NCBI RefSeq assembly: GCF_040932485.1
Contig: NZ_JBFRBH010000001.1
Location: 248,001 to 312,000 of the forward strand
Length of the DNA: 64,000 bases
Direction: 5' to 3'
Source of the DNA: Gymnodinialimonas sp. 202GB13-11
GTDB lineage: Bacteria; Pseudomonadota; Alphaproteobacteria; Rhodobacterales; Rhodobacteraceae
The position numbers and the translations under genes are program-made. The stretch's first letter is position 1, and every line of letters starts with the position of its first letter. This document shows, piece after piece, positions 3,990-55,430 of this stretch. The notes beneath the pieces were generated by a model. That model searched no databases. It worked only from the letters and a program-made list of their open reading frames with translations, and was not told where the DNA came from.

Positions 3990-4100
3990 CCCGGCGCCTC
4001 CGTCTCTCCGACCAACAGCAATTAAGCCGATCTTTATGAATAAGAGGTTGAATGCGTCTGCGCCGGATCGAAGTCCGGGTTCAGTGCCTTGGGGGCAGAC

Positions 4101-4760: not shown

Positions 4761-5491
4761 GCGGTAATGAATGTGACCTCGCCCTCCGGGTCGATCCGTG
4801 CGGCTGTCAAATTGCCCCCATAAACCGCGCCTGTATCGCAAGCGATGCGCCCGTCCTGCGCGAATGGGGCCTCAAATGGCTGGTGACCAAACGCGACCCA
4901 TTGCCCGTCGGACCGCTCCACCTTCAGGAAATCGCCATTGCCCCACAGCAACGATTTCGATGGCTGCGCATCCATCGGAACCACCGGGTCAGCGCCAGCA
5001 TGAACCACCCACAGCGTGCCCGACGACCAACTCAGCGGGAGCGCACCCATCCAATCGACAAGATCGGATCCCATCGCTTCCATCAGATCCCCTGCAGCAT
5101 CAAGCAAGCCGCCGGTGTTGCGTGTATCCGTGGTCAACCCGTTGCCCACGCCAAAGCTTGCCATTGTCTGCAACCCACCATAACGCAGCCACCGTTTGGC
5201 CGGCCCGGTCGGGTCAGCCAAAAAATCCAGTGCCATGCGTTCATGGTTTCCCATCAGCCCGTAAAGCTGGTCGGGATGGGCAGACGTGATCTGCGAAACG
5301 AATGCCAAAACCTCGGCATTACCCTCCCCACGGTCGATGTAATCGCCCACAAAAACGACCTTCCCAGGCCCCGTCCGGGCCATGTCATCGTCGACCTGCT
5401 CCAACAGAGCTTCCAGTTTGTCGACGCACCCATGCACATCGCCAATCACATAAACCAAACCCTCAGGTGCCGGAGCCTGCCACCGCGCCAT
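4757..5491 (-). CDS. Serine/threonine-type metallophosphoesterase
   Basis: This 244-residue protein of the PPP/calcineurin-like phosphoesterase superfamily contains the three metal-binding motifs GDVHG (about 18-22), GDYIDRG (about 48-54) and GNHE (about 81-84) in order. The family includes bacterial protein phosphatases and Ap4A hydrolases; substrate cannot be told from sequence. AAGGA lies 7 bases upstream of the ATG. It sits between two exopolysaccharide genes on the opposite strand, so a role in controlling polysaccharide output is conceivable but only suggested by position. Confidence 0.88.
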   Translation of the reverse strand: MARWQAPAPEGLVYVIGDVHGCVDKLEALLEQVDDDMARTGPGKVVFVGDYIDRGEGNAEVLAFVSQITSAHPDQLYGLMGNHERMALDFLADPTGPAKRWLRYGGLQTMASFGVGNGLTTDTRNTGGLLDAAGDLMEAMGSDLVDWMGALPLSWSSGTLWVVHAGADPVVPMDAQPSKSLLWGNGDFLKVERSDGQWVAFGHQPFEAPFAQDGRIACDTGAVYGGNLTAARIDPEGEVTFITA

Positions 5492-5666
5492 GATTCGTCC
5501 TTCCCCACTCGTCGACCCCCTGCCTAACCCGTGCGTGACCGCTTTGCATCTGCCCAGAGTTTTTTCGCCGAAACCGCCTGCACCCTCGGCACTCGCTTTC
5601 GGATGCGGCTAAAATGCCGGAAACACCGAGTCGTTGGTGGGCCCGCTGCGGGCTGAAGGGGGTAAT

Positions 5667-7031
5667 ATGAACGTATCGTTGCGAAGTGTCGTTGCGGGGA
5701 TTGCCATGCTGTCGCTGGCGGCATGTGGATCGGCCTATATCTCGTCCGATATTTCCGCGGCTGCCGGTGCGGATGGTGTGCAGGTTGTTGAACTGTCCCC
5801 CGCTACAATCGCGCATGCGAACCGCAGCCCATACACGCCACAAAGCCTGCCGCTCGCCTTTTCGCGTATTGCCGGCGGCGGTGGCGGACCACGTGGGGCA
5901 GAACGTTTGCCTGATCCCGTGTTCGATCCGCAATCGCGCCCCGGCGCGCTTGAAGTCCGTGTTCCACCCAGCGTGAACCCCGGCCCTTATCAAATTGGCG
6001 TTGGCGACGTGTTGCTGTTTGCCACACCGCGCGGCGAGTCCACGGCCGAAGAACTGGCCGGCTTGGTGGCGGCCCAAAACCAGCGCCAAGGCTATACGGT
6101 GCAAGACAATGGCGATATCGCCATTCCGGATGTGGGGCGCATCATGGTGGCTGGCCTGACCCTGGCCCAAGCCGAAGATGCGGTGTTTGAGCGCCTGCTT
6201 GAGGCGCGTATCGACCCCTCGTTCAGCCTTGAAGTGGCCGAGTTCAACTCCCAGCGCGTTTCCGTCGGCGGCGCAGTTCGCAACCCTGGCGTTGTGCCGG
6301 TTGGCATGACGCCGGTCTACCTTGATCAGGTTCTCGCCTCGGTTGGGGGCCTATCCCTCGACGCGGACGATTTTGCCGTCATTCGTATTTATCGCGACGG
6401 CACGCTCTACCAAATCCCGACCTCTGAGCTCTATTCCGATCAAGGTCTGCAGCGTTTGCGCCTTCAGGACGGAGACAGCTTGTTTGTCGACACCGCCTAC
6501 GATTTTGAGCAGGCCCAAGCATACTTCGAGGAAGTCATCGCACGCGCCGAATTCAACCGGGCTGCTCGGGCCGACGCAATCAACCAGCTTGCGACCGAGG
6601 TTTCGATCCGCCGCGGCGCGTTGGAGGAAAGCCGCCAGAACTTCCGCGACCGGCTGGAGCTTGGGGCAGAGGGTCAGGAATACGTCTATATTGCCGGCGA
6701 AGTCGGGGAACCCGGACGCTTTGCCTTGCCTTTCGAAAACCGCGCCGTCTTGGCCGATGCCCTGTTCGACGCTGGCGGGTGGAGTGAAAGCACCGGCAAC
6801 CCGTCGCAGATCTATCTACTGCGGGCCCAAGACAGCTCGGCCTATGTGAGCGCTGTGACGGCTTATCGCCTCGACGGATCGAACGCCGCCAACCTTGTTA
6901 TGGCGACCCGCATGGAACTGCGGCCCGGTGACGTGATTTTTGTGGCGGAGCAGCCGGTAACGCGATGGAACCGCGTTATCGAACAGATCACCCCGTCGAT
7001 CATCGGCCTAGGTGCAAATGCAGTGAACTGA
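5667..7031 (+). CDS. Polysaccharide export outer-membrane lipoprotein (Wza-like)
   Basis: This 454-residue protein has a lipoprotein signal peptide with the lipobox LAAC (Cys20). The Poly_export domain follows (about 105-190, beginning YQIGVGDVLLF), then SLBB-type repeats, one around RVSVGGAVRNPG (about 198) and another around YVYIAGEVGEPG (about 345). A charged helical region lies between them, and the C-terminus has an ITPSIIGL segment like the outer-membrane helix of Wza. It would form the outer-membrane channel for an exopolysaccharide. The ATG at 5667 follows AAGGGGG and starts the signal peptide directly. No Wzc, Wzx or Wzy gene is in the window. Confidence 0.9.
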   Translation: MNVSLRSVVAGIAMLSLAACGSAYISSDISAAAGADGVQVVELSPATIAHANRSPYTPQSLPLAFSRIAGGGGGPRGAERLPDPVFDPQSRPGALEVRVPPSVNPGPYQIGVGDVLLFATPRGESTAEELAGLVAAQNQRQGYTVQDNGDIAIPDVGRIMVAGLTLAQAEDAVFERLLEARIDPSFSLEVAEFNSQRVSVGGAVRNPGVVPVGMTPVYLDQVLASVGGLSLDADDFAVIRIYRDGTLYQIPTSELYSDQGLQRLRLQDGDSLFVDTAYDFEQAQAYFEEVIARAEFNRAARADAINQLATEVSIRRGALEESRQNFRDRLELGAEGQEYVYIAGEVGEPGRFALPFENRAVLADALFDAGGWSESTGNPSQIYLLRAQDSSAYVSAVTAYRLDGSNAANLVMATRMELRPGDVIFVAEQPVTRWNRVIEQITPSIIGLGANAVN

Positions 7032-7148
7032 CATGCGGGCGGGGCTTCTTTTAAGCCCTGCCTGCGCAGCTATGCAGCCAGTAGTGGATAGTGTTTCGGC
7101 GTAGAGACAGCTTTTTCTTCACGCCTCTGTCTTACTCAAGCGCCAATG

Positions 7149-7187
7149 AAAAACCCGCGCGGATCTCTCCGAGCGGGTTTTGTTTTG
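7149..7187. terminator. Bidirectional intrinsic terminator
   Basis: AAAACCCGC at 7150-7158 pairs with GCGGGTTTT at 7173-7181, and the inner CGGA/TCCG extends the stem around a TCTC tetraloop. T-rich sequence follows on the + strand and A-rich sequence precedes it, so it can end both the Wza-like gene and the leftward small gene at 7217-7453. Confidence 0.85.
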
Positions 7188-7216
7188 ATCTCATTACTTC
7201 CCGAAGGAAGCACCGA

Positions 7217-7453
7217 TTAGTTTGTGCCGTCGCTCTCATCGCCGGATGCGATGATGGCGATTGCAACTGCCGCTGCAGCCACACCGACGATCGCTTCACA
7301 CGGGATGCCGCTGTTCACAACATCGCACGAGGATTGGGATCCGACAGTCACCTCAAGATCGGTCTCAGGTGTGACCACAGGCTCGATGCCTTGTGCGAAT
7401 GCCGATGTTGACAGGCCGACGATTGCGGCGATGGAAAGCATAATATTCTTCAT
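7217..7453 (-). CDS. Small exported protein of unknown function
   Basis: This 78-residue protein has a clear Sec signal peptide (about 1-19, ending AFA-Q). The mature part has two cysteines (in SSCDVV and IPCEAI) that may form a disulfide. A second hydrophobic Ala/Val/Ile stretch (about 53-67) precedes an acidic tail ending DESDGTN. GGAGGAACCC lies just before the ATG, which fixes the start. It is isolated, separated from the Wza-like gene by a shared terminator. No family recognised. Confidence 0.75.
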   Translation of the reverse strand: MKNIMLSIAAIVGLSTSAFAQGIEPVVTPETDLEVTVGSQSSCDVVNSGIPCEAIVGVAAAAVAIAIIASGDESDGTN

Positions 7454-8218: not shown

Positions 8219-8653
8219 TTAAACTGACGGTGTTTCACCGCAGGCTCTGAACGCCTCAACTGCAGGTGCGGCGCCTTCAAGTGACATTGCTGCGACCGCT
8301 AGTCCGGTGAACCCAGTTGCCCCTTCATTGAATTGCAGCCCGTCGAGGACATTGCCGAAACCACGGTCTGATACCGTGATCGAACGCCTATCCTCGGACA
8401 ATTCATGCGCATCGGTCATGATCATGTTGGGTTGCGGGCCGTAGAAGGCCATGCCGAACCGGCTTTCCTCGGGCCAGGGCTCCGGGGTTGTGAGGGTGAT
8501 GGTGTAGAGCGGGCCGGACGGGTCGAACGTAAGTCGCACGTCGATGCCGTCTTCGGCGTGGGTCAGGGTACAGAGGGTGCCCTCAACGCCAGCCTCCCAT
8601 GCCAAGGACGGTGTGGCGGCAAGCAACAGGGCGGCGGTCAGGACGATTTTCAT
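8219..8653 (-). CDS. Exported protein of unknown function
   Basis: This protein has 144 residues with an N-terminal Sec signal peptide (MKIVLTAALLLAATPSLAW; cleavage probably after Ala18). The mature domain is beta-rich, containing LCTLTHAEDGIDVRLTF, and has cysteines near both ends (LCTL and RACGE) that could form a disulfide. The open frame extends upstream to 8740, but the signal peptide places the start at 8653. Family not recognised. It diverges from the YjbR-like gene at 8734. Confidence 0.65.
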   Translation of the reverse strand: MKIVLTAALLLAATPSLAWEAGVEGTLCTLTHAEDGIDVRLTFDPSGPLYTITLTTPEPWPEESRFGMAFYGPQPNMIMTDAHELSEDRRSITVSDRGFGNVLDGLQFNEGATGFTGLAVAAMSLEGAAPAVEAFRACGETPSV

Positions 8654-8733
8654 GGAGCAGAAGATAGCGAGGATTGCGCCGCCGGCCAGTGGGAAGGCTT
8701 GCGGCGTAGGGCTGCCTGCGCGAGGGTTGAGGG

Positions 8734-9087
8734 ATGACACGCGACGAATTCAATGCCTTTTGCGGCAGCATGAAAGCCACGTCCCATGTGGTTCAGTGGG
8801 GCAATGCGGATGTGTGGAAGGTTGGCGGCAAGGTCTTTGCGCTGTGTGGTTGGAACGACGGCGAAGACGCGTTCACGTTCAAGGTGGGCGATGTGGCGTT
8901 CGAGGTGCTGCCGGAACAACCCGGCATTCGGCCCGCGCCGTATCTGGCATCGCGGGGGATGAAGTGGGTTCAGGTCTATGAGGCTGGCGCGATGTCGGAG
9001 GCCTCGCTGAGGGAGCATATCGAGGCGAGCTACGATATGGCGGTGGGCAAGCTGACCAAGAAGCTGCGGGCCGAGTTGGGAGTGTGA
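8734..9087 (+). CDS. MmcQ/YjbR family protein
   Basis: This 117-residue protein has the compact YjbR/MmcQ fold. It contains WKVGGKVFAL (about 28-37), the ARG-like SRGMKWVQV segment (about 73-81) and a C-terminal helix AVGKLTKKLRAEL, matching the family in order and length. YjbR-like proteins have a double-wing fold similar to DNA-binding MotA domains, but their physiological role is not established. GAGGG lies upstream of the ATG. It diverges from the exported protein at 8653. Confidence 0.85.
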   Translation: MTRDEFNAFCGSMKATSHVVQWGNADVWKVGGKVFALCGWNDGEDAFTFKVGDVAFEVLPEQPGIRPAPYLASRGMKWVQVYEAGAMSEASLREHIEASYDMAVGKLTKKLRAELGV

Positions 9088-9236
9088 GGGTGTGCAAGGT
9101 TGCACAAAGGGGTCAAGCATCTGAAAAGTATACACAATGACGTTTTTCTTAAGTCTTTTTTGACGGAATCTGCGCTAACAGAGCGCCGCTGAGGGTCAGC
9201 CATTACCCCGCCACGCTGGCCCACCGGAGCATGCCC

Positions 9237-9731
9237 ATGGAGCCCCTTTCTGACAGTACCGTTCTCACCCTTTCCGGCCTCTGCATGGTTGGGCTACTGC
9301 TTGTCTTGCTACTCCGCCGACGCAGGCCCCGGGGTCGTCCTGTGGTCATCGACGGCTCGAACGTCATGCACTGGAACGGTGAGGTCGCAAGCCTGACCAC
9401 CGTGAAAGAAGTCATCGCGCGGTTGCAGGCTGAGGGCTATGCGCCCGGCATTATCTTTGACGCGAATGCGGGCTATAAGCTGGCCGATCACTATCTCGAC
9501 GACCGGCACTTTGCCAAACTGCTGAACCTCCCCACAGATCGCGTGCTTGTGGTGCCGAAGGGGCAACCAGCGGACCCGACGATCTTGGCTGCCGCGCGGG
9601 ATATGGGAGGACAGGTTGTTACAAATGACCGGTTCCGCGATTGGGCGGAGCAGTTCCCCGAGGTGCGGGAGACGGGGCATTTGATGCGGGGCGGCTACCG
9701 GGATGGTGTGCTTTGGCTTGAGGGGGCGTGA
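9237..9731 (+). CDS. Membrane-anchored NYN/Zc3h12a-like ribonuclease
   Basis: This 164-residue protein has one N-terminal membrane helix (about 8-26) followed by an Arg-rich stop-transfer segment, then a NYN (PIN-like) nuclease domain of the Zc3h12a/Regnase type. The acidic active-site positions are visible: VVIDGSN (Asp ~37), IIFDAN (Asp ~74), DPT (~114) and TNDRFRDW (Asp ~132-137). It is predicted to be a metal-dependent endoribonuclease facing the cytoplasm from the inner membrane. GGAG at 9226-9229 favours ATG 9237 over ATG 9231 (spacing 7 versus 1). It has no operon partner. Confidence 0.82.
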   Translation: MEPLSDSTVLTLSGLCMVGLLLVLLLRRRRPRGRPVVIDGSNVMHWNGEVASLTTVKEVIARLQAEGYAPGIIFDANAGYKLADHYLDDRHFAKLLNLPTDRVLVVPKGQPADPTILAAARDMGGQVVTNDRFRDWAEQFPEVRETGHLMRGGYRDGVLWLEGA

Positions 9732-9776
9732 GCCGGCCGCGGCCCGGCTTAGCCTTCGCATAAAGCTCTACCGCCG

Positions 9777-10904
9777 TTATCGCACGATCCGCACTTGTTC
9801 GAAGGTGTGGCCATAGGCGCTGAGCGGGCCTGTGACTTCGATGATCTCGCCGGGGCGCAAGTCGCGGACCAATGTACCCGAGACATTGCACACACTCACG
9901 GACGCATCAGGTGCATTTGTTGGGACCAGTGTGGCGCATCCGCGTGAGCGCCTTGAAGTGGAAATGCGTTCGACCTCATAGGTCAGCGTAGCCAGCGAAG
10001 TATCGACGACATAGTGAGCCGTGGAGGGAACGCCGTACCAAACGGCACCAAAATACACCGCAATTGCCATCGGAATACCAACGGCAAAGCGCACAACCGG
10101 ATGGGGCGGCCTGCTGTCCGGGCGCATGAAATTGCGGACGGGTGCCCGGAAAATGCTGCCCAGAAGCATCGGAAGGATGACCACCACAAACACAACGGCA
10201 GATCCGGCAATCCAGTTACTTTGGCCAAACGCGTTCCAATCTGGCAGGCTGGCGGTCCGGCTGAACTTCATGCCGTATAGCGTGGCGATCAAGAGCGCCA
10301 TGAACGGCAGCATCAACAGGACATCCAGAAAATCAGTCTTGCGCCATGCGATTGCATTTGGACCCGGATGAGCCGGTTGTTGCATCGCAGCCTCTGACTG
10401 GACTGCATACATGCGGCGGCTTTGTTCTGCCGCTGCTTGGATCGCCCGTTGCTCCATCCTCAACGCGTGCTCACGCCGCGGCTCGCGCCAGGCCAGCCCA
10501 AAGGGCGCAACCAGAAGGAGGTAGCCAAGGCAGAGCAGACCCGCTGCAGCCGCAATGACATAGGTGGTGAGCGGCGGTGCATCGAGCATTCGGGACAGCA
10601 GATATTGGTCACGCAGCCCGAAGACGGCAACGATCACCCACGCCAGTGCAACGATGACGATCAGGAACCTGAGGAGGCCCGGGCGCGTGATCCTGACGAA
10701 CTTGTCGTGGACATTGGGCAACAGGAATAGAAGCGAAAGGATCACGAGGAAAGACGAAATCCCGATTGCGAAATTGGTCTCAACCGGCAGGCCAGAGAAC
10801 TTCACTTGAGTGAAGCAATAGACGATCCACGGCATCGCGGCGACAAGTCCGACAATGCCGATAATGCGCGCGAAGATATCGCTGACGAAAAGGTCCCACT
10901 TCAT
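9777..10904 (-). CDS. Multi-pass membrane protein of unknown function
   Basis: The protein has 375 residues with about seven hydrophobic segments: three or four in the N-terminal half (about 10-35, 42-62, 75-95, 115-135) and a second group at about 195-300. A charged cytosolic helix (REPRREHALRMEQRAIQ, about 145-160) lies between them. The last ~65 residues are soluble and beta-rich with two cysteines, and RPGEIIEVTGPL may be an SH3-like turn. ATG 10904 is chosen because the preceding 18 codons up to 10958 are strongly charged. No family recognised. Confidence 0.65.
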   Translation of the reverse strand: MKWDLFVSDIFARIIGIVGLVAAMPWIVYCFTQVKFSGLPVETNFAIGISSFLVILSLLFLLPNVHDKFVRITRPGLLRFLIVIVALAWVIVAVFGLRDQYLLSRMLDAPPLTTYVIAAAAGLLCLGYLLLVAPFGLAWREPRREHALRMEQRAIQAAAEQSRRMYAVQSEAAMQQPAHPGPNAIAWRKTDFLDVLLMLPFMALLIATLYGMKFSRTASLPDWNAFGQSNWIAGSAVVFVVVILPMLLGSIFRAPVRNFMRPDSRPPHPVVRFAVGIPMAIAVYFGAVWYGVPSTAHYVVDTSLATLTYEVERISTSRRSRGCATLVPTNAPDASVSVCNVSGTLVRDLRPGEIIEVTGPLSAYGHTFEQVRIVR

Positions 10905-44557: not shown

Positions 44558-45469
44558 TTAGAAAGGCGCAAATCCGTCGCTTCGTGCCTCAGGCATTGAC
44601 CATCGTTCTTGAGGGCTCGTGGCTTGCTCCGGTGCGCCTTCCATCGGAATTTGTCCGTGATCGCCGTAGAGCCAAAGCACGAAATTGAAGCGTTCGCCTT
44701 TGGTGATCGGTTCTGACGCATGGGGGATGCGGCCGTGGTGGATGAGCGCCGTGCCGGGCTCGAACGACAGCTTTTCAACGCGGCGTGTCGCGGGATCAAT
44801 GAAGCTGACCGCTGATCCGTCATACGCCCCGCCCGGCAGGTTGAAGTTGATGTTGAGTGTCACTGCCGAGGCGTCGGTGTGCGGCCGCAGAGACGTGTCC
44901 TTGTTCGCTTGCCATTGGATTGAGAAGCCGAACGTTTGCGTGTCGTATCCCATCACATCCGGGAACAGCATCCGGGAGATTGGACGCATGTAGCGGTGCA
45001 TGAGATCGTGGTAGACCGCCTGGAATGCGGGTGCGGCGAGGTAGCCTTCGGATCTGGGGTCCAACATGGCGCCGCCTCGGTTCAACGAGATGCCGTAAGG
45101 TGGGCGAAGCGGGATATCGGCCTCTGCCACAGCGCCCATGTAGGCGCGCAGGGTGGCAAGTTGTTCGACATCAAAGAATTGCGTGCGGTAGACGCCTGGA
45201 AACACCTCTTCCCAGAGGTCCTGAACCGCGCCTTCGGTGCTTGGGTCAACCCAAGCTGCGTCCACCGCGTTTTGCAGCTTTGAGTCGAAAATCGAACTGT
45301 CCAGCTTGGGGAGTTTTCCGTCGAGGCTGTCTTCCCACTCCGCCCAAGCCTTTTCGAACTGCTCTTTGTTGCCGTCCCAGAATTGCTGGACCGAAGGGTG
45401 CCTTCGCAACATGGCGTCCCGCGTGGGACGTTCTACGGTGCGGGCGTGTTGAAGCGATGTTTGAGTCAT
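44558..45469 (-). CDS. 2-oxoglutarate/Fe(II)-dependent oxygenase family protein
   Basis: This 303-residue protein's C-terminal half is a double-stranded beta-helix with the iron facial triad HTD (His197, Asp199) and His250, and the 2-oxoglutarate-binding Arg260 in GERFNFVLWLYG. FSIQWQANKDTSLRPHTDASAVTLNINFNLPG spans the site, resembling prolyl 4-hydroxylase-like enzymes. The substrate is unknown. AGGAGA precedes ATG 45469. Its 5' leader contains a 9-bp hairpin (45489-45536). It stands between tRNA-Ser and an SDR gene on the same strand, suggesting an oxidative pathway. Confidence 0.88.
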   Translation of the reverse strand: MTQTSLQHARTVERPTRDAMLRRHPSVQQFWDGNKEQFEKAWAEWEDSLDGKLPKLDSSIFDSKLQNAVDAAWVDPSTEGAVQDLWEEVFPGVYRTQFFDVEQLATLRAYMGAVAEADIPLRPPYGISLNRGGAMLDPRSEGYLAAPAFQAVYHDLMHRYMRPISRMLFPDVMGYDTQTFGFSIQWQANKDTSLRPHTDASAVTLNINFNLPGGAYDGSAVSFIDPATRRVEKLSFEPGTALIHHGRIPHASEPITKGERFNFVLWLYGDHGQIPMEGAPEQATSPQERWSMPEARSDGFAPF

Positions 45470-45488
45470 TCTTTTATTTCTCCTGATC

Positions 45489-45536
45489 GGCCGTTTCTTT
45501 GTGCCTTGAGATCCATGTATTTTCGTCGAAACGGCC
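45489..45536 (-). promoter_or_regulatory. Leader hairpin upstream of the 2OG oxygenase gene
   Basis: GGCCGTTTC (45489-45497) and GAAACGGCC (45528-45536) form a perfect 9-bp inverted repeat with a 30-base loop, located a few bases upstream of the AGGAG that serves the leftward start at 45469. It would fold in the 5' leader and could influence ribosome access or mRNA stability. Confidence 0.4.
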
Positions 45537-45679
45537 AAGAAATAGGCCGAAATCGGAAATAGTATTCGGGTTTCGCTTATAATCGGAGCCGACGTGCTAT
45601 GAGTCAGGCGGCCATGCCAGAACGCGACCGCGAGGGTGGCCTCCGCAACCTGAAAACTAGACTGATCGACAAAAGTGCA

Positions 45680-46462
45680 TCAGGCGCTCGCGATGCTGTT
45701 CAACGCAGACATCACAGCCGCCACGTGATTGGCTTGGCTCGCCGCCCCGTGCGGCGGAGCGAAGCGCCCGCTGTCATTGTCAAAATACTTGCCGGAGGCA
45801 TTGGCGAAATCGCTGCCGGTCGAAGCGGCAACCAAAATATCAGCCCCTATGCTCAGATCATTGCCCGCCACGCCGAAGCCTTCCTTCACCATCTTGGACG
45901 CAAGCAGAGAGCCCGGGTTGACCGAAACAACTACCGGCCCTTGCGGGAGGTCTTTGGCCATTTCAGCGCTCCAAATCGTGATGGCCAGCTTGCTTTGTGC
46001 GTAAGCCTCCATGTCGCCCATAGGTTGGAACACGGTCATGCCATCGACATCGACTGGGGCCTGGGCAGCCGATGACAGATTCACTACGCGGCCTGCCTTT
46101 GGAATGATCGGAAGGAGTGCCCGCGTCAAAATGTACGGCGCAATGGTGTTCACGTCGAAACGGATATCTCTGCCCGCCGCTGTCTTGGCGTGGGGCGTTT
46201 TCAGGACACCGGCATTGTTGATCAGCACGTCCAGCCTTTCATGGTCGGACAGGACCGCCTCAGCCATAGCCCGCACGTCGCCCATCTTTGAAAGATCGGC
46301 TTGATAGGTTGACGGTTTGCCGTGAACTTGCGCGGCGGCCTTCGCGAGCTTGTCCGCGCTGCGTCCGTGAAGAAGCACCTTATGGCCGAGTGCTCCAAGT
46401 TTTTGGGCGGTCAAAAGGCCGATGCCGTCCGTGGCACCTGTGATCAGAATGGTCTTTGTCAT
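45680..46462 (-). CDS. Short-chain dehydrogenase/reductase
   Basis: This 260-residue Rossmann oxidoreductase has the NAD(P) glycine loop TGATDGIG (8-15), NNAG (82-85) and the catalytic Ser131 region with Tyr154-x3-Lys158 (YAQSK). The basic residue in HGRS (about 32-35) favours NADPH. It resembles retinol dehydrogenase/WWOX-like SDRs. Substrate unknown. It is 40 bases downstream of the CmcJ/NvfI-type gene on the same strand and probably shares its transcript. Confidence 0.92.
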   Translation of the reverse strand: MTKTILITGATDGIGLLTAQKLGALGHKVLLHGRSADKLAKAAAQVHGKPSTYQADLSKMGDVRAMAEAVLSDHERLDVLINNAGVLKTPHAKTAAGRDIRFDVNTIAPYILTRALLPIIPKAGRVVNLSSAAQAPVDVDGMTVFQPMGDMEAYAQSKLAITIWSAEMAKDLPQGPVVVSVNPGSLLASKMVKEGFGVAGNDLSIGADILVAASTGSDFANASGKYFDNDSGRFAPPHGAASQANHVAAVMSALNSIASA

Positions 46463-46502
46463 GTTGTTTCCTTGTCTCGATGCAGGCCGGGGGGCGACTT
46501 GG

Positions 46503-47285
46503 CTAGCCGTCATAGCGAATGAGGGTACGGCTCTCGATGCTGGTTCGGATGGTGTGGATTGTTGGGTCCTCGACCATGTCCACGGCGCTGTGGCCTACCG
46601 ATGGCAAGCCCTGATTGTCGTAGATGTTGAAGTAGGCGATTTCGTCAGGGGTCATCTTTGACTGATAGACCCATTGGTGAGCCTCGTTTGCAGCTAATCC
46701 GAAGATTTGGCCACGCCGATCCGGGTAGATGAGGTCGATCAAGATCCAGTCATCTGGCGCAACAGAAGCGGGTTTCAGGAAAGCCAGGGGTGCAGAGTTG
46801 ATCGGATTGCGTACGGGACGCCAGATGTTGATGAAAGCATAGTGGCCGGTCGCCCATTGCCTGGCGCGCTTTTCGCCAAGAATATCGACAAGACGTTTCT
46901 TTGCACCGTCGGCACTATAGTCACTGTGGACGTTCCGCGCTGGCTTGCGGTCTGAGTTGGGATCATCTTCGCGGACGGTGTGATCGAAAATCACGACTTC
47001 TTTTGCGCCCAGATTGCTTTCCAGGAAATCTGAGAGCTCCTCGTCATAGATTGATTGCCAGCCTTTCCAGTCGAAATCGGTCACTGAGGATGGAAGGCCA
47101 GCGAACGCAATACCGTCCCGTTCAAATGAAACGGACGCTTCACCAAGCCTAGTGTCGTGCAGTGGCACCTTGGTTGTGGCAAGTTCCGGCGAGACGAGCT
47201 TGCCCACGATACCACCGGCGTCGATTTCGAATGCCTGCCGCTCAGCCTTGTGGACGTGATAGTTTACGGTTCCAACGCGCGGCAT
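46503..47285 (-). CDS. CmcJ/NvfI family oxidoreductase
   Basis: This 260-residue protein resembles the CmcJ/NvfI/GA4-desaturase-like family. Signature pieces are VVIFDHTVRE (about 95-104), NVHSDYSADGA (about 118-128), GHYAFINIWRPVRNPINSAPLAF and YFNIYDNQGLPSVGHSAVDM. Known members act in fungal meroterpenoid and bacterial cephamycin pathways, some as oxygenases or isomerases. The bacterial marine function is unknown. It diverges from a LysR gene and leads the SDR and perhaps the 2OG oxygenase. Its Shine-Dalgarno GGAGGA can pair with an upstream TCCTCCG. Confidence 0.85.
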   Translation of the reverse strand: MPRVGTVNYHVHKAERQAFEIDAGGIVGKLVSPELATTKVPLHDTRLGEASVSFERDGIAFAGLPSSVTDFDWKGWQSIYDEELSDFLESNLGAKEVVIFDHTVREDDPNSDRKPARNVHSDYSADGAKKRLVDILGEKRARQWATGHYAFINIWRPVRNPINSAPLAFLKPASVAPDDWILIDLIYPDRRGQIFGLAANEAHQWVYQSKMTPDEIAYFNIYDNQGLPSVGHSAVDMVEDPTIHTIRTSIESRTLIRYDG

Positions 47286-48355: not shown

Positions 48356-49387
48356 TCACTGTTGGAGCCTCGGCGTCATATTTCGAGTGGAGGCGCGTGG
48401 CAGAATGGACGCGTCCAGCGAGACTGGCTTTGCCGATAGCCCGGACGTGATCCAATCAACGATTGCATCACCAGCGGCATCACCCATGGCTTCGGCTGGC
48501 AGGTGGATGCTTGTAATTGACGGTTGGCTGACCTCGGACCATTCGAGATCATCGAAACCCATCAAGGATATCTCCTCGGGCACTGATATTCCCTGGCGTT
48601 GCAATTCAAACAATGCGCCCAAAGCCTGAACATCTGACAGGCATAGCAGAGCTGTCGGGCTGGTCGCGGCGCCGGTCATCTGGCGCACCGCGTCTGCGCC
48701 GCCCGCCACATCCATTGATACGGCTGAAAAGCCGACTTCGATGCCGCGTGCGTTTTGAGCAATCGCCTCAATACGCGCGGCGATCCGGTCATTTGTGTCC
48801 GTCGGGCCATGAACGACAAGAATGCGGTGGTGTCCGAGCGATTTGAGAAAGTCGATGGCTTTTACGGCGATTGCACCGTTGTCGTACCCAACGGTTGGAT
48901 AGCGCGCCGAAGGGTCATAGTAGGATGTGATCAGGGTCGGGATGTGAAACCGCTCGACCAAGGCATCGAACCCTTCAGTGTGGTTCTTACCCGAAACGAT
49001 CAGCCCATCGACCCCCATGTCGATCAACCCCATCGCCTTGCGTTCCTCAACCTCGGGCTGTCCGCCCGTGACGGCTACCACGAGGGCATAGCCCCGCTCG
49101 GAAAGGCGGTTTTCGAGCGTGTCGAGATAGCGTGCGAAGATGGAATGATCCAGCGTCGGGACAAGGGCGCCGACGGTGCGGGACCGACCGGAGTTAAGGG
49201 TGCGCGCCGCTGCACTTGGCAAAAATCCAAGGGTGTCGATGGCTTGCGTCACACGGTTGCGCGTATCGCTCGTCACCAACTCCGACCCGTTCAAGACCCG
49301 TGACACGGTGGCCACCGAAACGCCGGCACTTCTTGCGACATCGCGCAGCGTTGCGCGCTTTGGAGGGAAGGACGAATTCACGGTCAA
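48356..49387 (-). CDS. LacI family transcriptional regulator
   Basis: The protein has 343 residues. The HTH at about 12-35 reads LRDVARSAGVSVATVSRVLNG, with hinge SAAARTLNSGRSRTVGALVPT, followed by the PBP-like effector domain including GLIVSGKN, PTLITSYYD and LMGFDDLEWSEVSQPSITSIHLP. It belongs to the GntR/PurR-like part of LacI. The start is a TTG at 49387 (or GTG 49381). It diverges from the DUF1989-GcvT gene, with a perfect TTGTAACCGGTTACAA between them, which is almost certainly its operator. Confidence 0.95.
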   Translation of the reverse strand: MTVNSSFPPKRATLRDVARSAGVSVATVSRVLNGSELVTSDTRNRVTQAIDTLGFLPSAAARTLNSGRSRTVGALVPTLDHSIFARYLDTLENRLSERGYALVVAVTGGQPEVEERKAMGLIDMGVDGLIVSGKNHTEGFDALVERFHIPTLITSYYDPSARYPTVGYDNGAIAVKAIDFLKSLGHHRILVVHGPTDTNDRIAARIEAIAQNARGIEVGFSAVSMDVAGGADAVRQMTGAATSPTALLCLSDVQALGALFELQRQGISVPEEISLMGFDDLEWSEVSQPSITSIHLPAEAMGDAAGDAIVDWITSGLSAKPVSLDASILPRASTRNMTPRLQQ

Positions 49388-49420: not shown

Positions 49421-49466
49421 TTGACTCAGAGGGGTGCCAACTTTACCCAATTGTAACCGGTTACAA
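49421..49466 (+). promoter_or_regulatory. Promoter and LacI-type operator of the DUF1989-GcvT / ProXVW operon
   Basis: TTGTAACCGGTTACAA (49451-49466) is a perfect 16-bp palindrome with the central CG typical of LacI-family operators. TTGACT (49421-49426) is a candidate -35 with a weak -10 (TACCCA at 49444), placing the operator over the transcription start. It lies 17 bases upstream of ATG 49483. Confidence 0.75.
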
Positions 49467-49482: not shown

Positions 49483-51807
49483 ATGGATGCGCTGCCCATC
49501 CATTTGATAGACAACCGCGGAGTGACGCCTGATGGGCGGTCTTTCCCCGGCCTTGCTGCGCCGATGGCGGGGCAGGGGAGCTTGGTCCACCCGCGCCAAG
49601 CGGTTCGGTTCACCCTTCGCACTGGCGACGTTCTTTGCATTGAAGGCCTGACCGACGCGCATGCCGCTTTTGTTTGTGTGCTAGATGATCACGGCGAGGG
49701 AGCCGCCGAAGCGCTTTCCCTAAACCCCGCCACGGGATTCCTGCCATCTGGCTTTGATCGCGCCGAGATCGACGGCTGGCTCCTGACACATGGACTTGAT
49801 CCGAATGGATCGTTGCCGCTGGTAGCGCTTCAAGGCGGCAGTGGCGCCTTGTTCCTGAAAACGAAGTCGCCTGTAACACTTTGGGTGCTGAACTGCCTGG
49901 ATCGCACCCTTCTGACGGATGGCCTTCTTCCTGACGCCCTGCGCATTTCCGTCCGGTCGAGGCCAGCAAACAGCCCCCTTTTGCCGCCGCCGCTTGGCGA
50001 GGTGCGCGAGGAATTCACGATTCATCGCGGCACAGCACAGGCATATGAGTTGCAGGCTGGCGAATACCTGCAGGTCATCGACGTTGAAGGGCAGCAATGC
50101 TCGGACTTCATGGCCTTTTCCGCGAAAGCGCTTCAGGCGGGCCAGGAGCGATTGATCGACAGCACTGCGACGCGGTCAATGTTGCGGCGGGCCTATCCGG
50201 GCCCCGGCCTGTTCGACAAGTTCTACGACGCCGAAATGGCACCCCTTCTGAATGTCGTGCAGGATACGTGCGGTCGGCATGACACGTTCGGCATGGCGTG
50301 CACGGCGCGTGGTTATGAAGAGGCGGGTTATCCGGGGCATTTGAATTGCTCTGACAATATCTCGGACGCGCTTGACCCTTTCGGCGTCGCGCGGCGCAAA
50401 GCCTGGCCCGCGATCAACTTTTTCTGGAACACGTGGATCGATGCGGGAACGCATCAGATCCAGACAGAGGAAAGCTGGTCCCGTCCTGGCGATTACGTGA
50501 CGCTGCGCGCGATCCAACCTTTGGTGTGTGTCAGCACGGCCTGCCCTGATGACATTGATCCGATCAACGGGTGGAACCCGACCGACATCCATGTCCGCAT
50601 TTATCGGCCCGATGCGCCGATCCGGCGAGCCGTCGCATATCGAGAGAAAGAGAACGCGCCCGTGACCCTGAGCCAGGAATCGGCCTTTCATCCGGCGACC
50701 AGAAAGCTCACTCGTGATTTTCATTCTGCTCGAAACCTATGGGTTCCAAACTCGTTTTCGACGGTTGGACCAATTGCGGAGTACTGGGCCTGCCGAAACG
50801 CCGCCACGCTGCAGGACATGAGCGGCCTGCGGAAATACGAGGTTGTGGGCCCGGATGCGGAACGTTTGCTGCAAAAAGCCATGACACGGGATGTGGCCAA
50901 ATTGGCCGTTTGGCGCGGCACCTATGCGTTAATGTGCGACGCACAGGGCGAAGTCATCGACGACGGCACCTTGTTCCGCCTTGCCGACCAGCGCTTCCGT
51001 TGGTGCTGCGGGTCCGAGGAAAGTGCCCGCCATTTGTCGGCGCTGGCAACGGAACACCGGCTTCAGGTGCGCATCAACGCCTCAGGCGACGTGCTGCCGA
51101 ACCTTGCGTTGCAGGGGCCGAAATCGCGCGACATCCTCCGCGAGTTTGTGTTCACGCAACCCCATGTCCCAGCGTTGGATGAGTTGAAGTGGTTTGGGGT
51201 GACGATGGCGCGCGTGGGTGACCGGGACGGCATCCCGTTCATGTTGGCGCGTTCTGGTTATACCGGAGAGTTGGGATACGAACTGTTTTGTTCGGCCAGC
51301 GATGCCCCGAAGCTGTGGGACATTGTGATGGCGGCTGGTGAGGGGCACGGCCTCAAACCGATGGGCGGAGCCGCGCTTGAGACCATACGCATTGAAGCTG
51401 GACTTGCTGCGGCTGGTGCTGAATTTGCGCCTGGTGTTGATGCGCTGGAGGCTGGGCTTGGCTTTGCAGTGGATTTCAACAAAAGCGAATTCGTGGGCAA
51501 GGACGCGCTGGAGCGGAACGCGAGCGCCCCGCGACGTGTCTTGAGGGGCTTGCTGATCGACGGCGATGATCTTGTCCATCACGGCGCACAGGTCTTTGCC
51601 GGAGAACGCCCCGTTGGCGTTGTCACTTCGGCAACCCATTCTCCAACCCTAGAGCGCGGAATTGCCATGGCGCGCCTGGCGATTGAGCACGCGGACCCCG
51701 GTGTTGAGCTGGAAATCGGGATGCTCGACGGCCGCATGAAACGTGTCGGAGCCACCGTTACCACCGTTCCCTTTATCGACCCGAGCCGATCCAGAGCTCG
51801 GGCTTAA
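49483..51807 (+). CDS. DUF1989-GcvT fusion protein (predicted THF-dependent demethylase with hydrolase-like domain)
   Basis: The protein has 774 residues in three parts. Residues ~20-165 look like a degenerate DUF1989 copy (RQAVRFTLRTGDVLCIEG). Residues ~175-375 are a full DUF1989 (urea carboxylase-associated) domain with likely metal/active-site residues in QQCSDF (Cys206), TCGRHD (Cys263, His266), LNCSDN (Cys289) and STACPDD (Cys354). Residues ~420-774 are a GcvT/aminomethyltransferase domain with DMSGLRKYEVVGPDA and SGYTGELGYE. GcvT homologues pass one-carbon units to tetrahydrofolate; DUF1989 pairs are known as carboxyguanidine deiminases. GGAG 8 bases upstream supports ATG 49483, although the frame is open from 49216. 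It is first in an operon with a ProXVW importer. Confidence 0.88.
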   Translation: MDALPIHLIDNRGVTPDGRSFPGLAAPMAGQGSLVHPRQAVRFTLRTGDVLCIEGLTDAHAAFVCVLDDHGEGAAEALSLNPATGFLPSGFDRAEIDGWLLTHGLDPNGSLPLVALQGGSGALFLKTKSPVTLWVLNCLDRTLLTDGLLPDALRISVRSRPANSPLLPPPLGEVREEFTIHRGTAQAYELQAGEYLQVIDVEGQQCSDFMAFSAKALQAGQERLIDSTATRSMLRRAYPGPGLFDKFYDAEMAPLLNVVQDTCGRHDTFGMACTARGYEEAGYPGHLNCSDNISDALDPFGVARRKAWPAINFFWNTWIDAGTHQIQTEESWSRPGDYVTLRAIQPLVCVSTACPDDIDPINGWNPTDIHVRIYRPDAPIRRAVAYREKENAPVTLSQESAFHPATRKLTRDFHSARNLWVPNSFSTVGPIAEYWACRNAATLQDMSGLRKYEVVGPDAERLLQKAMTRDVAKLAVWRGTYALMCDAQGEVIDDGTLFRLADQRFRWCCGSEESARHLSALATEHRLQVRINASGDVLPNLALQGPKSRDILREFVFTQPHVPALDELKWFGVTMARVGDRDGIPFMLARSGYTGELGYELFCSASDAPKLWDIVMAAGEGHGLKPMGGAALETIRIEAGLAAAGAEFAPGVDALEAGLGFAVDFNKSEFVGKDALERNASAPRRVLRGLLIDGDDLVHHGAQVFAGERPVGVVTSATHSPTLERGIAMARLAIEHADPGVELEIGMLDGRMKRVGATVTTVPFIDPSRSRARA

Positions 51808-51832: not shown

Positions 51833-52789
51833 ATGAAAAAACTGACACTTAGCGCCGCCGCGCTTGGTATGGCCGTCACGGCCGGTGCCGCCAGCGCGCA
51901 AGAAACCGTGATGATTGGCGAGCCGTCCTGGCCCGGCGCACGTATCATGGCAAACCTGATCGGCCAAGTGATTGAAACGCGCCTTGGCGGCGAGGTGGGC
52001 TATGCGCCCGGCGCCAATGCCGTGATCTTCGCCGCCATGGACGGCGGCCGTGGCGACATCGACGTCCACCCCGACGTGTGGTTGCCCAACCAGCAAAGCT
52101 TTGTGGACGAGTACACCGAGACGGTGACCCTATCCGAAGGCTCCTACGAGGGCAGCTCTGGCATCTGCGTGCCCACCTATATGGCGGAAGAGCACAACAT
52201 CCGCACCATCTATGATCTGGCCACACCGGTCGCGCAGGAGCTATTCGACAGCGACGGCGACGGTATGGGTGAGGTCTGGGTTGGCGCATCTGGCTGGGCC
52301 TCCACCAACACTTTCTCGGTCCGTGTCCGCGACTACGGCATTAGCACCTTCCTGACGCCGACCACCGAAGACGAGACCGTGTTCTACAGCCGCCTGCGTG
52401 ACCTGATCGAAGCGCGCGAAGGGGCCGCGTTCTATTGCTACGCTCCGCATTACGTGCATGCGCTTTATGATGTGACGATGTTGGAAGAGCCGCCCTACGA
52501 CGAGTCGATGTACACTATGGTGGCAGCAGACCAGTCGGCCAACTGGTTCGAGGAAAGCTCGATCATGACGGGTGAGCCGGTGAAGACCATCCGCGTGGCA
52601 TTCTCCAACTCGCTCTTTGACCGCAACCCTGCGGCCGCTGCCTTCCTGCAGGCCATCGACATGGAAGCGTCGGAACTGTCGGAGCTGACCTACCAAGTCG
52701 TTGAGAACGGTGTCGAAACCGAAGTCGCCGTTGCCGCATGGATGGAAGAAAACAGCGACATGATCGACGGCTGGCTCGGGCTTAACTGA
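51833..52789 (+). CDS. proX: Glycine betaine/proline-type ABC transporter, substrate-binding protein
   Basis: This 318-residue OpuAC-family binding protein has a signal peptide (about 1-22, ending ASA-Q). VMIGEPSWPGARIMANLIGQVIETRLGGEV at the N-terminus and DIDVHPDVWLPNQ are characteristic; tryptophans such as Trp34, Trp81 and those in GASGWAS could form the aromatic box for a quaternary ammonium. Ligand specificity is not certain. AGGAGG precedes the ATG, 25 bases after the fusion gene. A strong stem-loop (52810-52837) follows, probably limiting transcription or protecting this part of the mRNA. Confidence 0.92.
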   Translation: MKKLTLSAAALGMAVTAGAASAQETVMIGEPSWPGARIMANLIGQVIETRLGGEVGYAPGANAVIFAAMDGGRGDIDVHPDVWLPNQQSFVDEYTETVTLSEGSYEGSSGICVPTYMAEEHNIRTIYDLATPVAQELFDSDGDGMGEVWVGASGWASTNTFSVRVRDYGISTFLTPTTEDETVFYSRLRDLIEAREGAAFYCYAPHYVHALYDVTMLEEPPYDESMYTMVAADQSANWFEESSIMTGEPVKTIRVAFSNSLFDRNPAAAAFLQAIDMEASELSELTYQVVENGVETEVAVAAWMEENSDMIDGWLGLN

Positions 52790-52873: not shown

Positions 52874-53923
52874 TTGTCCAAGGAAATCGCAATTGACGCG
52901 CGGGGCGTTTGGAAGGTCTTCGGCGACCGTTCCAAAGAAGCCCTGGCCGCCATTCATGCTGAAGGCCTCGGCAAGGCCGAAGTGCTCAGCAAGTTCGGAT
53001 GCGTGGTTGGCGTGGCTGATGCCAGTTTTGAGATCGAAGAAGGTGAGCTGTTTTGCATCATGGGCCTGTCGGGTTCAGGCAAATCGACCCTCGTGCGCCA
53101 TGTGAACCGTCTCCTTGAACCCACGGCGGGTGAAATCCGCATCGATGGGCGTGACGTCATGGGGCTGAACGACGCGGAACTGCGTGAGTTGCGCAACCAC
53201 AAGGTCGCGATGGTCTTCCAGAATTTCGGACTGATGCCGCACCGCACTGTGCGTGACAACGTAGCCATGCCGCTGGAAATCCGCGGCGCCGGAAAGGCGC
53301 GGCGTTGGGCGGAAGCGGATCGCGTGCTGGACTTGGTCGAGTTGACCGGGTGGGAAGACAAGTACGCCCATGAGCTGTCGGGCGGCATGCAACAGCGGGT
53401 TGGTCTGGCCCGCGCCATCGCCTCCGACCCCGATATTCTGCTGATGGACGAGCCATTTTCGGCCCTCGATCCGCTGATCCGTAAACAGTTGCAGGATCAG
53501 TTCATGGCGCTCTCCAAAGAGCTGAAGAAAACCACGATGTTCATCACCCACGACCTCGACGAGGCGATCCGCATCGGCAATCGCATCGCGATCATGAAGG
53601 ACGGGCGCATCGTGCAGATCGGCACACCGGAGGAGATTATCCTCAACCCCGCCGACGATTATGTCAGCGATTTCGTTGCCGGCATTTCCAAGCTGAACAT
53701 GATTTTCGCGCACTCGGTCATGACGCCCGTGGATCGGTTCCAGTCGGAGCACGGCGATGTGCCGAAAGACGCGAAAGAGGCCGCGCCTGATATGGATCTC
53801 AGCGCACTGATGGATCTGTGCATGGACGGCTCGGGCATCGTGAAGGTCGTGGCCGACGATAAGACGGTCGGCGTTATCAACCGCTCGGGCCTGATCCGGG
53901 CGATCAAGGAAAACCAGGGGTAA
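52874..53923 (+). CDS. proV: Glycine betaine/proline-type ABC transporter, ATP-binding protein
   Basis: This 349-residue ATPase has Walker A GLSGSGKST (64-72), Q-loop VFQNFGLMPHRTV, signature LSGGMQQRVGLARAI and Walker B ILLMDEPFSALDPLIR. The N-terminal KVFGDRSKEALAAIHAEGLGKAEVLSKFG is specific to the ProV/OpuAA type. The C-terminus keeps only part of a CBS region (IVKVVADDKTVGVINRSGLIRAI), shorter than the tandem CBS module of classical ProV that senses ionic strength. Start TTG 52874 has GGGG about 8 bases upstream. Confidence 0.94.
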   Translation: MSKEIAIDARGVWKVFGDRSKEALAAIHAEGLGKAEVLSKFGCVVGVADASFEIEEGELFCIMGLSGSGKSTLVRHVNRLLEPTAGEIRIDGRDVMGLNDAELRELRNHKVAMVFQNFGLMPHRTVRDNVAMPLEIRGAGKARRWAEADRVLDLVELTGWEDKYAHELSGGMQQRVGLARAIASDPDILLMDEPFSALDPLIRKQLQDQFMALSKELKKTTMFITHDLDEAIRIGNRIAIMKDGRIVQIGTPEEIILNPADDYVSDFVAGISKLNMIFAHSVMTPVDRFQSEHGDVPKDAKEAAPDMDLSALMDLCMDGSGIVKVVADDKTVGVINRSGLIRAIKENQG

Positions 53924-53927
53924 GGCC

Positions 53928-55430
53928 ATGAGCACAGAAAACGACATCACCCGCCTTGAGCCGCTGATCAACGAATTCGTTGGGCAGTCGCAACCCTATT
54001 ACCGCCGGGTCTTCGGCAGCATCCTGCAAGCGCCCGGCTACAAATTCACTTTAAACTGGGTGGCGGCCATTCTCGGCCCGATCTGGTTTGGCGCCCGGGG
54101 GCTCTGGAACTGGTTCCTGGGCTTCCTGATCCTTGAAACAGCAGCTTACATCCAGATCGGCATGGGTCTGTTCGGCGATCTGGGCTCGGGCCAGCGCGAG
54201 CGGGCGGAAAGCATTCAGGCCACGCTCGAACTGCGTTATCAGCAGATCGAAGCGGCGGAGAGTTCCGGTAATACCTCAACCGTTGAAAGCCTCAGGAACG
54301 CGGCGGAAGCCCTGGAGGGTGCGCTTGCCGATGCACAGGCCGCGGCAACGGCCGCGGACGCAACGGGGCTGTGGTTCATTGGTGGCGGTCTGGTCGCCCT
54401 TGGCATCGTCAAGTTCATCGAGGCCGCGCTGGCCAACGCGACGCTCGAAAACCAATTTGCGCGCTGGCGTTCCGACCGCTCGCTGGCCTCTGGCTGGTCC
54501 ATGCCGCGTATGGCTTTGGCCGCCGTCATGTTTGTGGCCGCCGTGATCCTGTCGACGATGCAATTTGCGCAACCCACCGCCTTTGTGATGTTGGCCGAGT
54601 TCCCGACCGACGGGAACTGGCGGCTGGCAGTCGGCGACTGGATCCAGGATGGCTTTGATTGGCTCCGCAGGGCAGGGCGCGGCGTCTTCGACACGATCAC
54701 TGCGGGGATGCGCAACCTGCTCGATGCAATCGAGGTGGTGCTTGTGGACACGCCATGGCCGGTTGTGGCCTTCGTGATCCTGATGCTCGCTTACCTGAGT
54801 GCGGGTCCGCGTCTTGCCATCTTCACTGCCGTTGCGTTGGCATATCTGGGCCTGCTGGACTTCTGGGAAAAGGCGATGACCACCGTGGCCCTTCTGGGCG
54901 CGGCTGCGCTGATCTCGATCACGCTTGGTATTCCGTTTGGGATTTATTGCACAAGGCGGCCCCGGGCCTACTCAATCGTTCGGCCGATCCTCGATTTCAT
55001 GCAGTCGATGCCGTCCTTCGTGTATCTGATCCCGGTCGTGGCCTTCATCGGCTCGGGCAAGCCCGCGGGCGTTGTGGCGACGATGATCTTCGGCTCTCCG
55101 CCGGTGATCCGCTTCACGGTTCTGGGCCTGCAACAGGTGCCCGAGACGGTGCGCGAGGCCGCCTTGGCCTTTGGCGCGACGCCCCGCTACCTGCTGTGGC
55201 GAGTCGAGCTGCCGCTGGCGGCCAAGACGATCATGGCTGGGGTAAACCAGACCATTCTGATGTCGCTGGCCATGGTTGTGGTCGCTTCGCTTATCGGCGC
55301 GCAGGGTCTGGGCGAAGACGTGCTAGAGGCGCTGCAATTCGCTGCGGCGGGTCAAGGTTTGCTCGCGGGGCTTGCGATCCTGTTCTGTGCCATGATCCTC
55401 GACCGGATCGTTGCGGGGCGGGGAAAGTAG
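53928..55430 (+). CDS. proW: Glycine betaine/proline-type ABC transporter, permease with long N-terminal extension
   Basis: The protein has 500 residues. The C-terminal ~220 residues are the ProW permease core with LDFMQSMPSFVYLIPVVAFIGSGKPAGVVAT and the ATPase-contact EAA loop (VREAALAFGATPRYLLWRVELP). The N-terminal ~270 residues are unusual: PGYKFTLNWVAAILGPIWFGARGLWNWFLG resembles a DUF2628-type membrane hairpin, followed by a charged coiled-coil stretch (about 80-140) and two more membrane helices. ProW usually has about 280-350 residues. The gene starts 4 bases after the proV stop. Confidence 0.93.
   Translation: MSTENDITRLEPLINEFVGQSQPYYRRVFGSILQAPGYKFTLNWVAAILGPIWFGARGLWNWFLGFLILETAAYIQIGMGLFGDLGSGQRERAESIQATLELRYQQIEAAESSGNTSTVESLRNAAEALEGALADAQAAATAADATGLWFIGGGLVALGIVKFIEAALANATLENQFARWRSDRSLASGWSMPRMALAAVMFVAAVILSTMQFAQPTAFVMLAEFPTDGNWRLAVGDWIQDGFDWLRRAGRGVFDTITAGMRNLLDAIEVVLVDTPWPVVAFVILMLAYLSAGPRLAIFTAVALAYLGLLDFWEKAMTTVALLGAAALISITLGIPFGIYCTRRPRAYSIVRPILDFMQSMPSFVYLIPVVAFIGSGKPAGVVATMIFGSPPVIRFTVLGLQQVPETVREAALAFGATPRYLLWRVELPLAAKTIMAGVNQTILMSLAMVVVASLIGAQGLGEDVLEALQFAAAGQGLLAGLAILFCAMILDRIVAGRGK

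Follow-up and report, generated by a model that had tools for sequence, protein, structure and literature searches.

The question raised by this locus is which reaction is catalysed by a single chain that joins a DUF1989 domain to a complete GcvT aminomethyltransferase domain, and on which compound. The locus lies in a stretch of DNA of 64,000 nucleotides, referred to below as the window. Clade B denotes the group of relatives to which the window protein belongs, and Tdm the trimethylamine N-oxide (TMAO) demethylase.

Gene and domain layout

The gene and its domains, with the evidence for each in parentheses, are as follows.
49483..51807, plus strand: putative clade-B Tdm-like demethylase, 774 aa (frame, Pfam, NCBIfam, PDB match, and trees)
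50017..50523, plus strand: DUF1989 domain PF09347, residues 179-347 (Pfam E 3e-44)
50704..51468, plus strand: GCV_T folate-binding domain PF01571, residues 408-662 (Pfam E 2.9e-60)
51535..51780, plus strand: GCV_T_C barrel domain PF08669, residues 685-766 (Pfam E 1.4e-19)

Translation gives a frame of 774 residues followed by a stop codon, with internal stops absent. All three domain matches exceed the curated Pfam cut-offs, and together they make up the Tdm-type set, i.e., DUF1989, GCV_T, and GCV_T_C on one chain of ~760-800 residues. One scan of genome contigs yielded 89 relatives, the best 80 of which were retained for comparison. Nearly all of these 80 align over approximately the full length, with a best-segment identity of 58-86%; contig ends interrupt a few of them. 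Since relatives match over almost the whole length, a local fusion artefact is ruled out, and the fusion described in the earlier note is confirmed as real and intact.

As for structure prediction, the AlphaFold model of the protein (mean pLDDT 79.0, pTM 0.60) has low confidence in three segments next to or overlapping the metal site (residues 229-239, 275-285, and 357-363), and the pocket was therefore left unread from the model. In Foldseek, the two halves, GcvT and DUF1989, were matched by separate structures, with 9q59 absent from the 50 listed of the 65 matches with E up to 0.001.

Placement relative to TMAO demethylase

According to the sequence search, the best solved relatives are the TMAO demethylase chains 9q59 and 9q5l (E 7e-188) and 9q5a (E 1.3e-185). 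The earlier note knew of no reaction assigned to this architecture and named published enzymology of an orthologue with the same layout as what would speak against it. Such enzymology exists at the level of architecture: Tdm has the same layout, is represented in the PDB, and is characterised in PMC12560246.

The best NCBIfam model, NF053776 (TMAO demethylase), gives 1044.6 bits for the window protein, below the cut-off of 1100, and the glycine-cleavage GcvT model TIGR00528 is also under its cut-off (184.7 vs 235.85 bits). The NF053776 cut-off was dropped as the sole divider between clades, since two Roseibium-type clade-B proteins pass it (G009 with 1125.2 and G004 with 1121.8 bits), and it fails outside clade B as well, where L148 (1081.7 bits) and L147 (1097.2 bits) are both under it. 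Across the 292 order genomes, Tdm copies separate by score into two groups: 62 genomes have one at 1136-1236 bits and 25 have one at 1016-1080 bits. The score served to assign these genomes to a clade, and 30 of the first group (L084-L113) were taken into the tree.

The tree was built with FastTree from 148 sequences, among them relatives outside the family and some of beta- and gammaproteobacterial origin, with clade B represented by 81 sequences (the window protein and L003-L082); G646 (1029.9 bits) and G657 (1029.3 bits) were left out. These 81 sequences and L151, 82 tips in all, are separated from the 66 other tips with support 1.0 and a branch of 0.95 (FastTree, unrooted check), and IQ-TREE, run on 95 of the 148 tips, assigns the same split 100/100 (SH-aLRT/ultrafast bootstrap). 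The window protein does not group with pathway-linked Tdm in the trees. Aligned over full length, it shares 59-86% identity with 25 clade-B members vs 38-42% with 15 members outside the clade, and 41 positions are fixed (≥90%) to differing residues in clade B and in canonical Tdm. Both forms are present in 7 of the 292 order genomes, all 7 being among the 25 just mentioned, so they are not simply alternative alleles. Judged by these sequence comparisons, clade B is a monophyletic sister clade of canonical Tdm. Given the tree, the score under the cut-off, and the gene content described below, the protein was no longer taken for an ordinary Tdm.

No characterisation of clade B was found in the literature searched, most subscription papers and bioRxiv preprints lying outside the search, and the clade is apparently unstudied. 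In public annotation, the clade-B gene of L151 (a Paracoccus seriniphilus plasmid, 8649-10896) appears as two overlapping pieces.

Genes of the TMA/TMAO pathway

In the 292 order genomes, the 18 with clade B only contain tmm in none, dmm in none, and gmaS in 2 cases, in contrast to all 62 canonical-Tdm genomes (55, 55, and 61, respectively). The 7 genomes with both forms have tmm in 5, dmm in 7, and gmaS in 7 cases; the corresponding values for the 212 genomes with neither form are 1, 3, and 30. The presence of dmm was called by PF11927 at 218 bits or more, a divider set in this analysis that excludes one genome at 206.2 bits (G250, in the neither-form group). Clade-B-only genomes thus look like genomes without any Tdm.

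As for the genome of the window itself, neither canonical Tdm nor canonical dmm was detected, no tmm match was found at E 1e-100 or better, and no gmaS match exceeds the cut-off (best 242.4 vs 469.6 bits). Its PF11927 match (170.6 bits, 267-aa frame) was considered as a dimethylamine monooxygenase and rejected, as it resembles a widespread shorter paralogue. This paralogue, located at C1:1884239-1884907 of the same genome, occurs in many order genomes at ~170 bits, mostly as frames of 250-300 residues among the matches listed, and is apparently distinct from the dimethylamine monooxygenase subunit.

The canonical copies in L115 and L117, the two stretches examined, occur together with a trimethylamine monooxygenase over cut-off; L115 additionally contains a FolD-like gene and, over cut-off, a GmaS-type ligase. 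On plasmids of Rhizobium, Phyllobacterium, Acinetobacter, Aquabacterium, and Paracoccus aminovorans the relative lies near dmm-type genes, and on 3 of these 5 also near a type III glutamate-ammonia ligase.

Proposed regulator and operator

Upstream of the gene lie two putative regulatory features.
48356..49387, minus strand: LacI-family regulator, divergent from the demethylase gene (Pfam LacI and Peripla_BP_3)
49452..49465, no strand: candidate palindromic operator TGTAACCGGTTACA, consensus TGTAACYRGTTACA (motif search and comparison of clade-B loci)

A divergent LacI homologue is present in 68 of the 81 clade-B loci, and all 68 have TGTAACYRGTTACA (at most 1 mismatch) just upstream of the gene; in 3 further loci the site is present and LacI is absent by the criterion used. 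In 1,678,941 bases of clade-B loci, 117 sites are found near the clade-B gene and 0 elsewhere, a count that is not independent, since the motif was derived from the same loci. With up to 2 mismatches allowed, the operator is the single match in the window, where 0.02 would be expected by chance; with up to 1 mismatch, it occurs once in the 4.0-Mb genome. Ten of the 81 loci have no operator, 7 of them with at least 4.6 kb of upstream sequence; the operator-less L067, L069, and L070 have little or none.

At the level of whole genomes, 21 of 25 contain the operator, always including one at the clade-B gene, with G295 and G193 having matches elsewhere in the genome as well; it was not found in G119, G089, G085, and G064 of the 25 scanned. 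The reversed control pattern yields 1-18 matches per strand per genome and in most genomes outnumbers the motif, so the evidence for the operator is its position, not its number. The regulator type also differs from that of the canonical gene: according to PMC13390433, in R. pomeroyi canonical Tdm is under the AraC-type TmaR, and the GntR-type TmoR acts on tmm.

Transporter

Downstream of the demethylase gene, a three-gene transporter follows.
51833..52789, plus strand: OpuAC-type substrate-binding protein (PF04069 and pocket alignment)
52874..53923, plus strand: ABC ATPase of the betaine/proline/choline family (TIGR01186, 360.3 bits vs cut-off 326.6)
53928..55430, plus strand: ABC permease, 500 aa (PF00528 over cut-off)

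The best NCBIfam model for the permease is the choline ABC permease, with 270.6 bits below the cut-off of 363. An OpuAC-type transporter is found downstream in 67 of the 77 clade-B loci able to show one. The known point of reference is TmoX of R. pomeroyi, which, according to PMC8918994, binds TMAO via W55, W102, F106, E131, W177, F220, and W222, with E131 hydrogen-bonding the TMAO oxygen; the Glu is needed in the TmoX tested, and TMAO-binding details vary between TmoX lineages.

The pocket comparison included 61 clade-B binding proteins of three types, from 66 loci with a match (window included), after L024 (short) and L016, L046, L049, and L061 (frames of more than 450 residues) were dropped. 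Glu131 is replaced (A, T, S, or Q) in 61 of 61, W55 and W102 are kept in 61 of 61 and W177 in 60 of 61, and the F106 position is occupied by Q, H, or W. In the window protein, Glu131 is changed to Ser, Phe106 to Gln, and both Phe220 and Trp222 to Tyr, the aromatic box being largely retained. Judging by these residues, the clade-B pocket looks made for a methylated cation, though not for TMAO in the TmoX manner. An identity of the transporter as TmoXWV was rejected because of the pocket changes and the weak match to 4xz6 (E 0.0021 over 78 residues).

These observations bear directly on the alternative that survives best, namely that the window protein is a second TMAO demethylase isozyme, which with its own transporter and regulator harvests exogenous TMAO independently of the TMA pathway. 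Architecture and metal ligands are the same as in Tdm, the transporter comes from the same family as TmoXWV (PMC8918994), and the 7 genomes with both forms fit differently regulated isozymes. Nor is the loss of the TmoX Glu proof against TMAO, because of the variation between TmoX lineages noted above, and a genome without dmm could use one TMAO methyl group and excrete dimethylamine. However, neither tmm nor canonical dmm occurs in any of the 18 clade-B-only genomes, Glu131 is replaced in every binding protein compared, and the 41 fixed differences and the long separating branch also argue against an isozyme, which we regard as a possible but rather unlikely reading. The window protein itself lies outside the characterised Tdm group, and its substrate may differ.

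Metal site and folate site

According to PMC12560246, Tdm of M. silvestris contains a DUF1989-like N-terminal domain in addition to DUF1989 and GcvT, and converts TMAO to dimethylamine and formaldehyde. Its reported Zn ligands are C263, C279, and C343, and an Fe site is proposed with H276 and D346, as well as D198. Based on that account, the 9q59 alignment, and residue spacing, the Zn cysteines correspond to Cys273, Cys289, and Cys354 of the window protein, the Fe-site residues to His286 and Asp357, and D198 to Asp208. Asp208, Cys273, His286, and Cys289 lie inside the DUF1989 domain, and Cys354 and Asp357 just past its end. Apart from Asp357, every one of these residues is the same in all 30 canonical and all 81 clade-B sequences compared; Asp357 is replaced by Glu in 3 of the 81.

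The Cys/His set proposed earlier (Cys206, Cys263, His266, Cys289, and Cys354) is therefore correct in part: Cys289 and Cys354 are Zn cysteines, Cys206 and His266 are invariant yet outside the Tdm ligands reported in PMC12560246, and Cys263 is variable, with Val in its place in 11 of the 30 canonical and 5 of the 81 clade-B sequences. Since the metal ligands are conserved between both clades, the same kind of N-demethylation would be expected at DUF1989.

As for the folate site, Leu632 and Phe498 of the window protein stand at the positions of the THF-binding residues R223 and Y101 of E. coli GcvT, as placed by motif. Tdm is reported to have the same kind of change at these Arg/Tyr positions, and its formaldehyde release is slightly lowered by THF (PMC12560246). 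Folate use by the window protein is plausible from its sequence.

A DmdA-like enzyme, with direct methyl transfer to tetrahydrofolate and DUF1989 merely binding the substrate, would agree with the intact GYTGELGYE stretch of the GcvT domain and with a match to the DmdA model NF009133. That match, with 148.6 bits, is far under the cut-off of 410, the fully conserved metal site argues for a catalytic DUF1989, and the halves of M. silvestris Tdm are inactive when separated (PMC12560246), which makes direct transfer very unlikely. The weakest candidate is a demethylase with a second activity, deamination or hydrolysis of a guanidino or carboxyguanidine compound via DUF1989, a domain shared with urea-amidolyase-associated proteins (TIGR03424 and TIGR03425 matches); it can hardly be right, as both models are far under cut-off (86.3 vs 284.7 and 58.2 vs 205.95 bits), the metal ligands agree with the Tdm site, and no urea or guanidine enzyme is present among the six window neighbours scanned. 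Deaminase or hydrolase activity, the second half of what the earlier note suggested, is thus unsupported on the sequence evidence, and the first half, N-demethylation to tetrahydrofolate, gains support from the homology to Tdm (9q59 and NF053776).

Neighbouring genes of clade-B loci

Genes for a dimethylglycine-dehydrogenase (DMGDH)-like flavoprotein, ETF, FolD, and PurU lie beside the cassette in L010, L039, L072, and L075, those for a DMGDH-like protein and PurU in L014, and PurU in L067; the folate-gene families were identified on L010 and L072. L010 has a second DMGDH-like gene, as do L008, L013, L022, and L052, where it sits at the edge of the locus. In L010 the two DMGDH-like genes form one stretch with ETF, FolD, and PurU that adjoins the LacI gene. 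In total, linkage to folate genes is observed in 10 of the 81 clade-B loci from few genera, a frequency not compared with the background rate. Such neighbours suggest stepwise demethylation of a multi-methylated amine, with the methyl groups entering the folate pool.

A link to sulfonates is a weaker hint. Taurine-type ABC genes occur in 6 of the 81 loci, from two genera (L008, L013, L022, L052, L039, and L075), and two of the binding proteins encoded there reach 155.2 and 144.4 bits, short of the 304.25 required by the taurine model. In L051, L064, and L070, a gene for a CuyA-type D-cysteate sulfo-lyase, scored over cut-off in L051, lies between the clade-B enzyme and a second type of OpuAC transporter.
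L051, 13269-14378: CuyA-type gene
L064, 13345-14388: CuyA-type gene
L070, 3205-4260: CuyA-type gene

Two further assignments were not borne out. A taurine-related reading of the class-III aminotransferase and MocR genes of L039 and L022 found no confirmation; taurine-specific models do not match, and the best models are a general aminotransferase and PdxR (over cut-off). The 241-aa gene common to 6 loci, considered as a sulfite exporter, is an alpha/beta hydrolase. Neighbours in L034, L040, L058, L059, L062, L071, and L073 carry no consistent message.

Other genes were recorded as separate observations. In L058, from a Planktomarina MAG, a protein of 1067 residues (4007-7210, plus strand) lies just upstream of the clade-B frame at 7259; it has a reductive-dehalogenase region (TIGR02486, 199.6 vs 160.35 bits) and ferredoxin domains, both over cut-off, and a weak DmmA-like match. 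The window itself contains a CmcJ/NvfI-family oxidoreductase (46503-47285, minus strand; NCBIfam 253.9 vs cut-off 80 bits), a sub-cut-off OGFOD2-like match (44558-45538), and an SDR-like frame judged by eye (45680-46513).

Proposed function

The reading favoured here, with a probability of about 0.6, is that the window protein is a Tdm-type N-demethylase of a sister clade whose substrate is a methylated cation different from TMAO. The substrate is perhaps a betaine, a candidate prompted by the DMGDH, FolD, and PurU genes that adjoin the enzyme in some loci. In the mechanism proposed, the transporter would import a quaternary or tertiary methylated ammonium compound, and the LacI protein, sensing the substrate, would act on the operator to control the cassette. 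One N-methyl group would then be removed as a formaldehyde-level unit at the Zn/Fe site in DUF1989, and the GcvT domain would hand the one-carbon unit to tetrahydrofolate. The leftover amine may be finished by general or linked enzymes, e.g., DMGDH-like flavoproteins with FolD and PurU.

Unlike a plain betaine, TMAO brings an oxygen of its own; demethylation of a betaine would call for a different oxidant or for the methyl group to be transferred directly. A more specific version, put forward tentatively and with considerable doubt, is that clade B uses its Tdm-type Zn/Fe site, together with folate capture, for the initial demethylation of a quaternary betaine, e.g., an N-methylated sulfonate like taurine betaine, and that two DMGDH-like steps follow. 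Hints of taurine betaine are the stretch with the DMGDH pair in L010, the taurine-type ABC genes, and CuyA in L051, L064, and L070; bacterial catabolism of taurine betaine was not found in the literature, among the matches listed. Betaine is otherwise broken down by Rieske, corrinoid, and betaine-homocysteine routes (in part PMC12478193), and the version just given, if true, would be a betaine catabolic route distinct from all three.

If the substrate does differ from TMAO, clade B would indicate that some methylated nitrogen compound is used by a route so far unrecognised, chiefly among Rhodobacterales. The regulator, the operator, and the binding protein would provide ready handles for naming that compound. 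Genome surveys may be affected as well: Tdm genes serve to infer TMAO use from genomes (e.g., PMC12661815), and clade B, close in sequence and unaccompanied by the remaining pathway genes, could be counted as tdm on similarity.

Comparison with known systems

Among known systems, the closest is Tdm of M. silvestris and marine roseobacters (9q59, 9q5l, 9q5a, and NF053776), which shares the domain order, the length, the DUF1989 metal ligands, and the GcvT domain. Unlike Tdm, clade B forms a separate clade with LacI, a conserved operator, and a different transporter; the window protein scores under the family cut-off, and clade-B-only genomes are without tmm and dmm. As for the transporter, TmoXWV belongs to the same OpuAC/betaine-type ABC family and shares Trp at the W55, W102, and W177 positions. 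The DMSP demethylase DmdA is a member of the GcvT family and uses THF; its model (369 positions) covers the GcvT part of the window protein only. Dimethylglycine oxidase/dehydrogenase likewise fuses a catalytic domain to a GcvT folate domain, and this folate part matches by sequence and structure. Its catalytic domain, however, is an FAD domain in place of the metal-dependent DUF1989. Compared with these systems, clade B combines a known architecture with the position of a sister clade and, probably, a new substrate.
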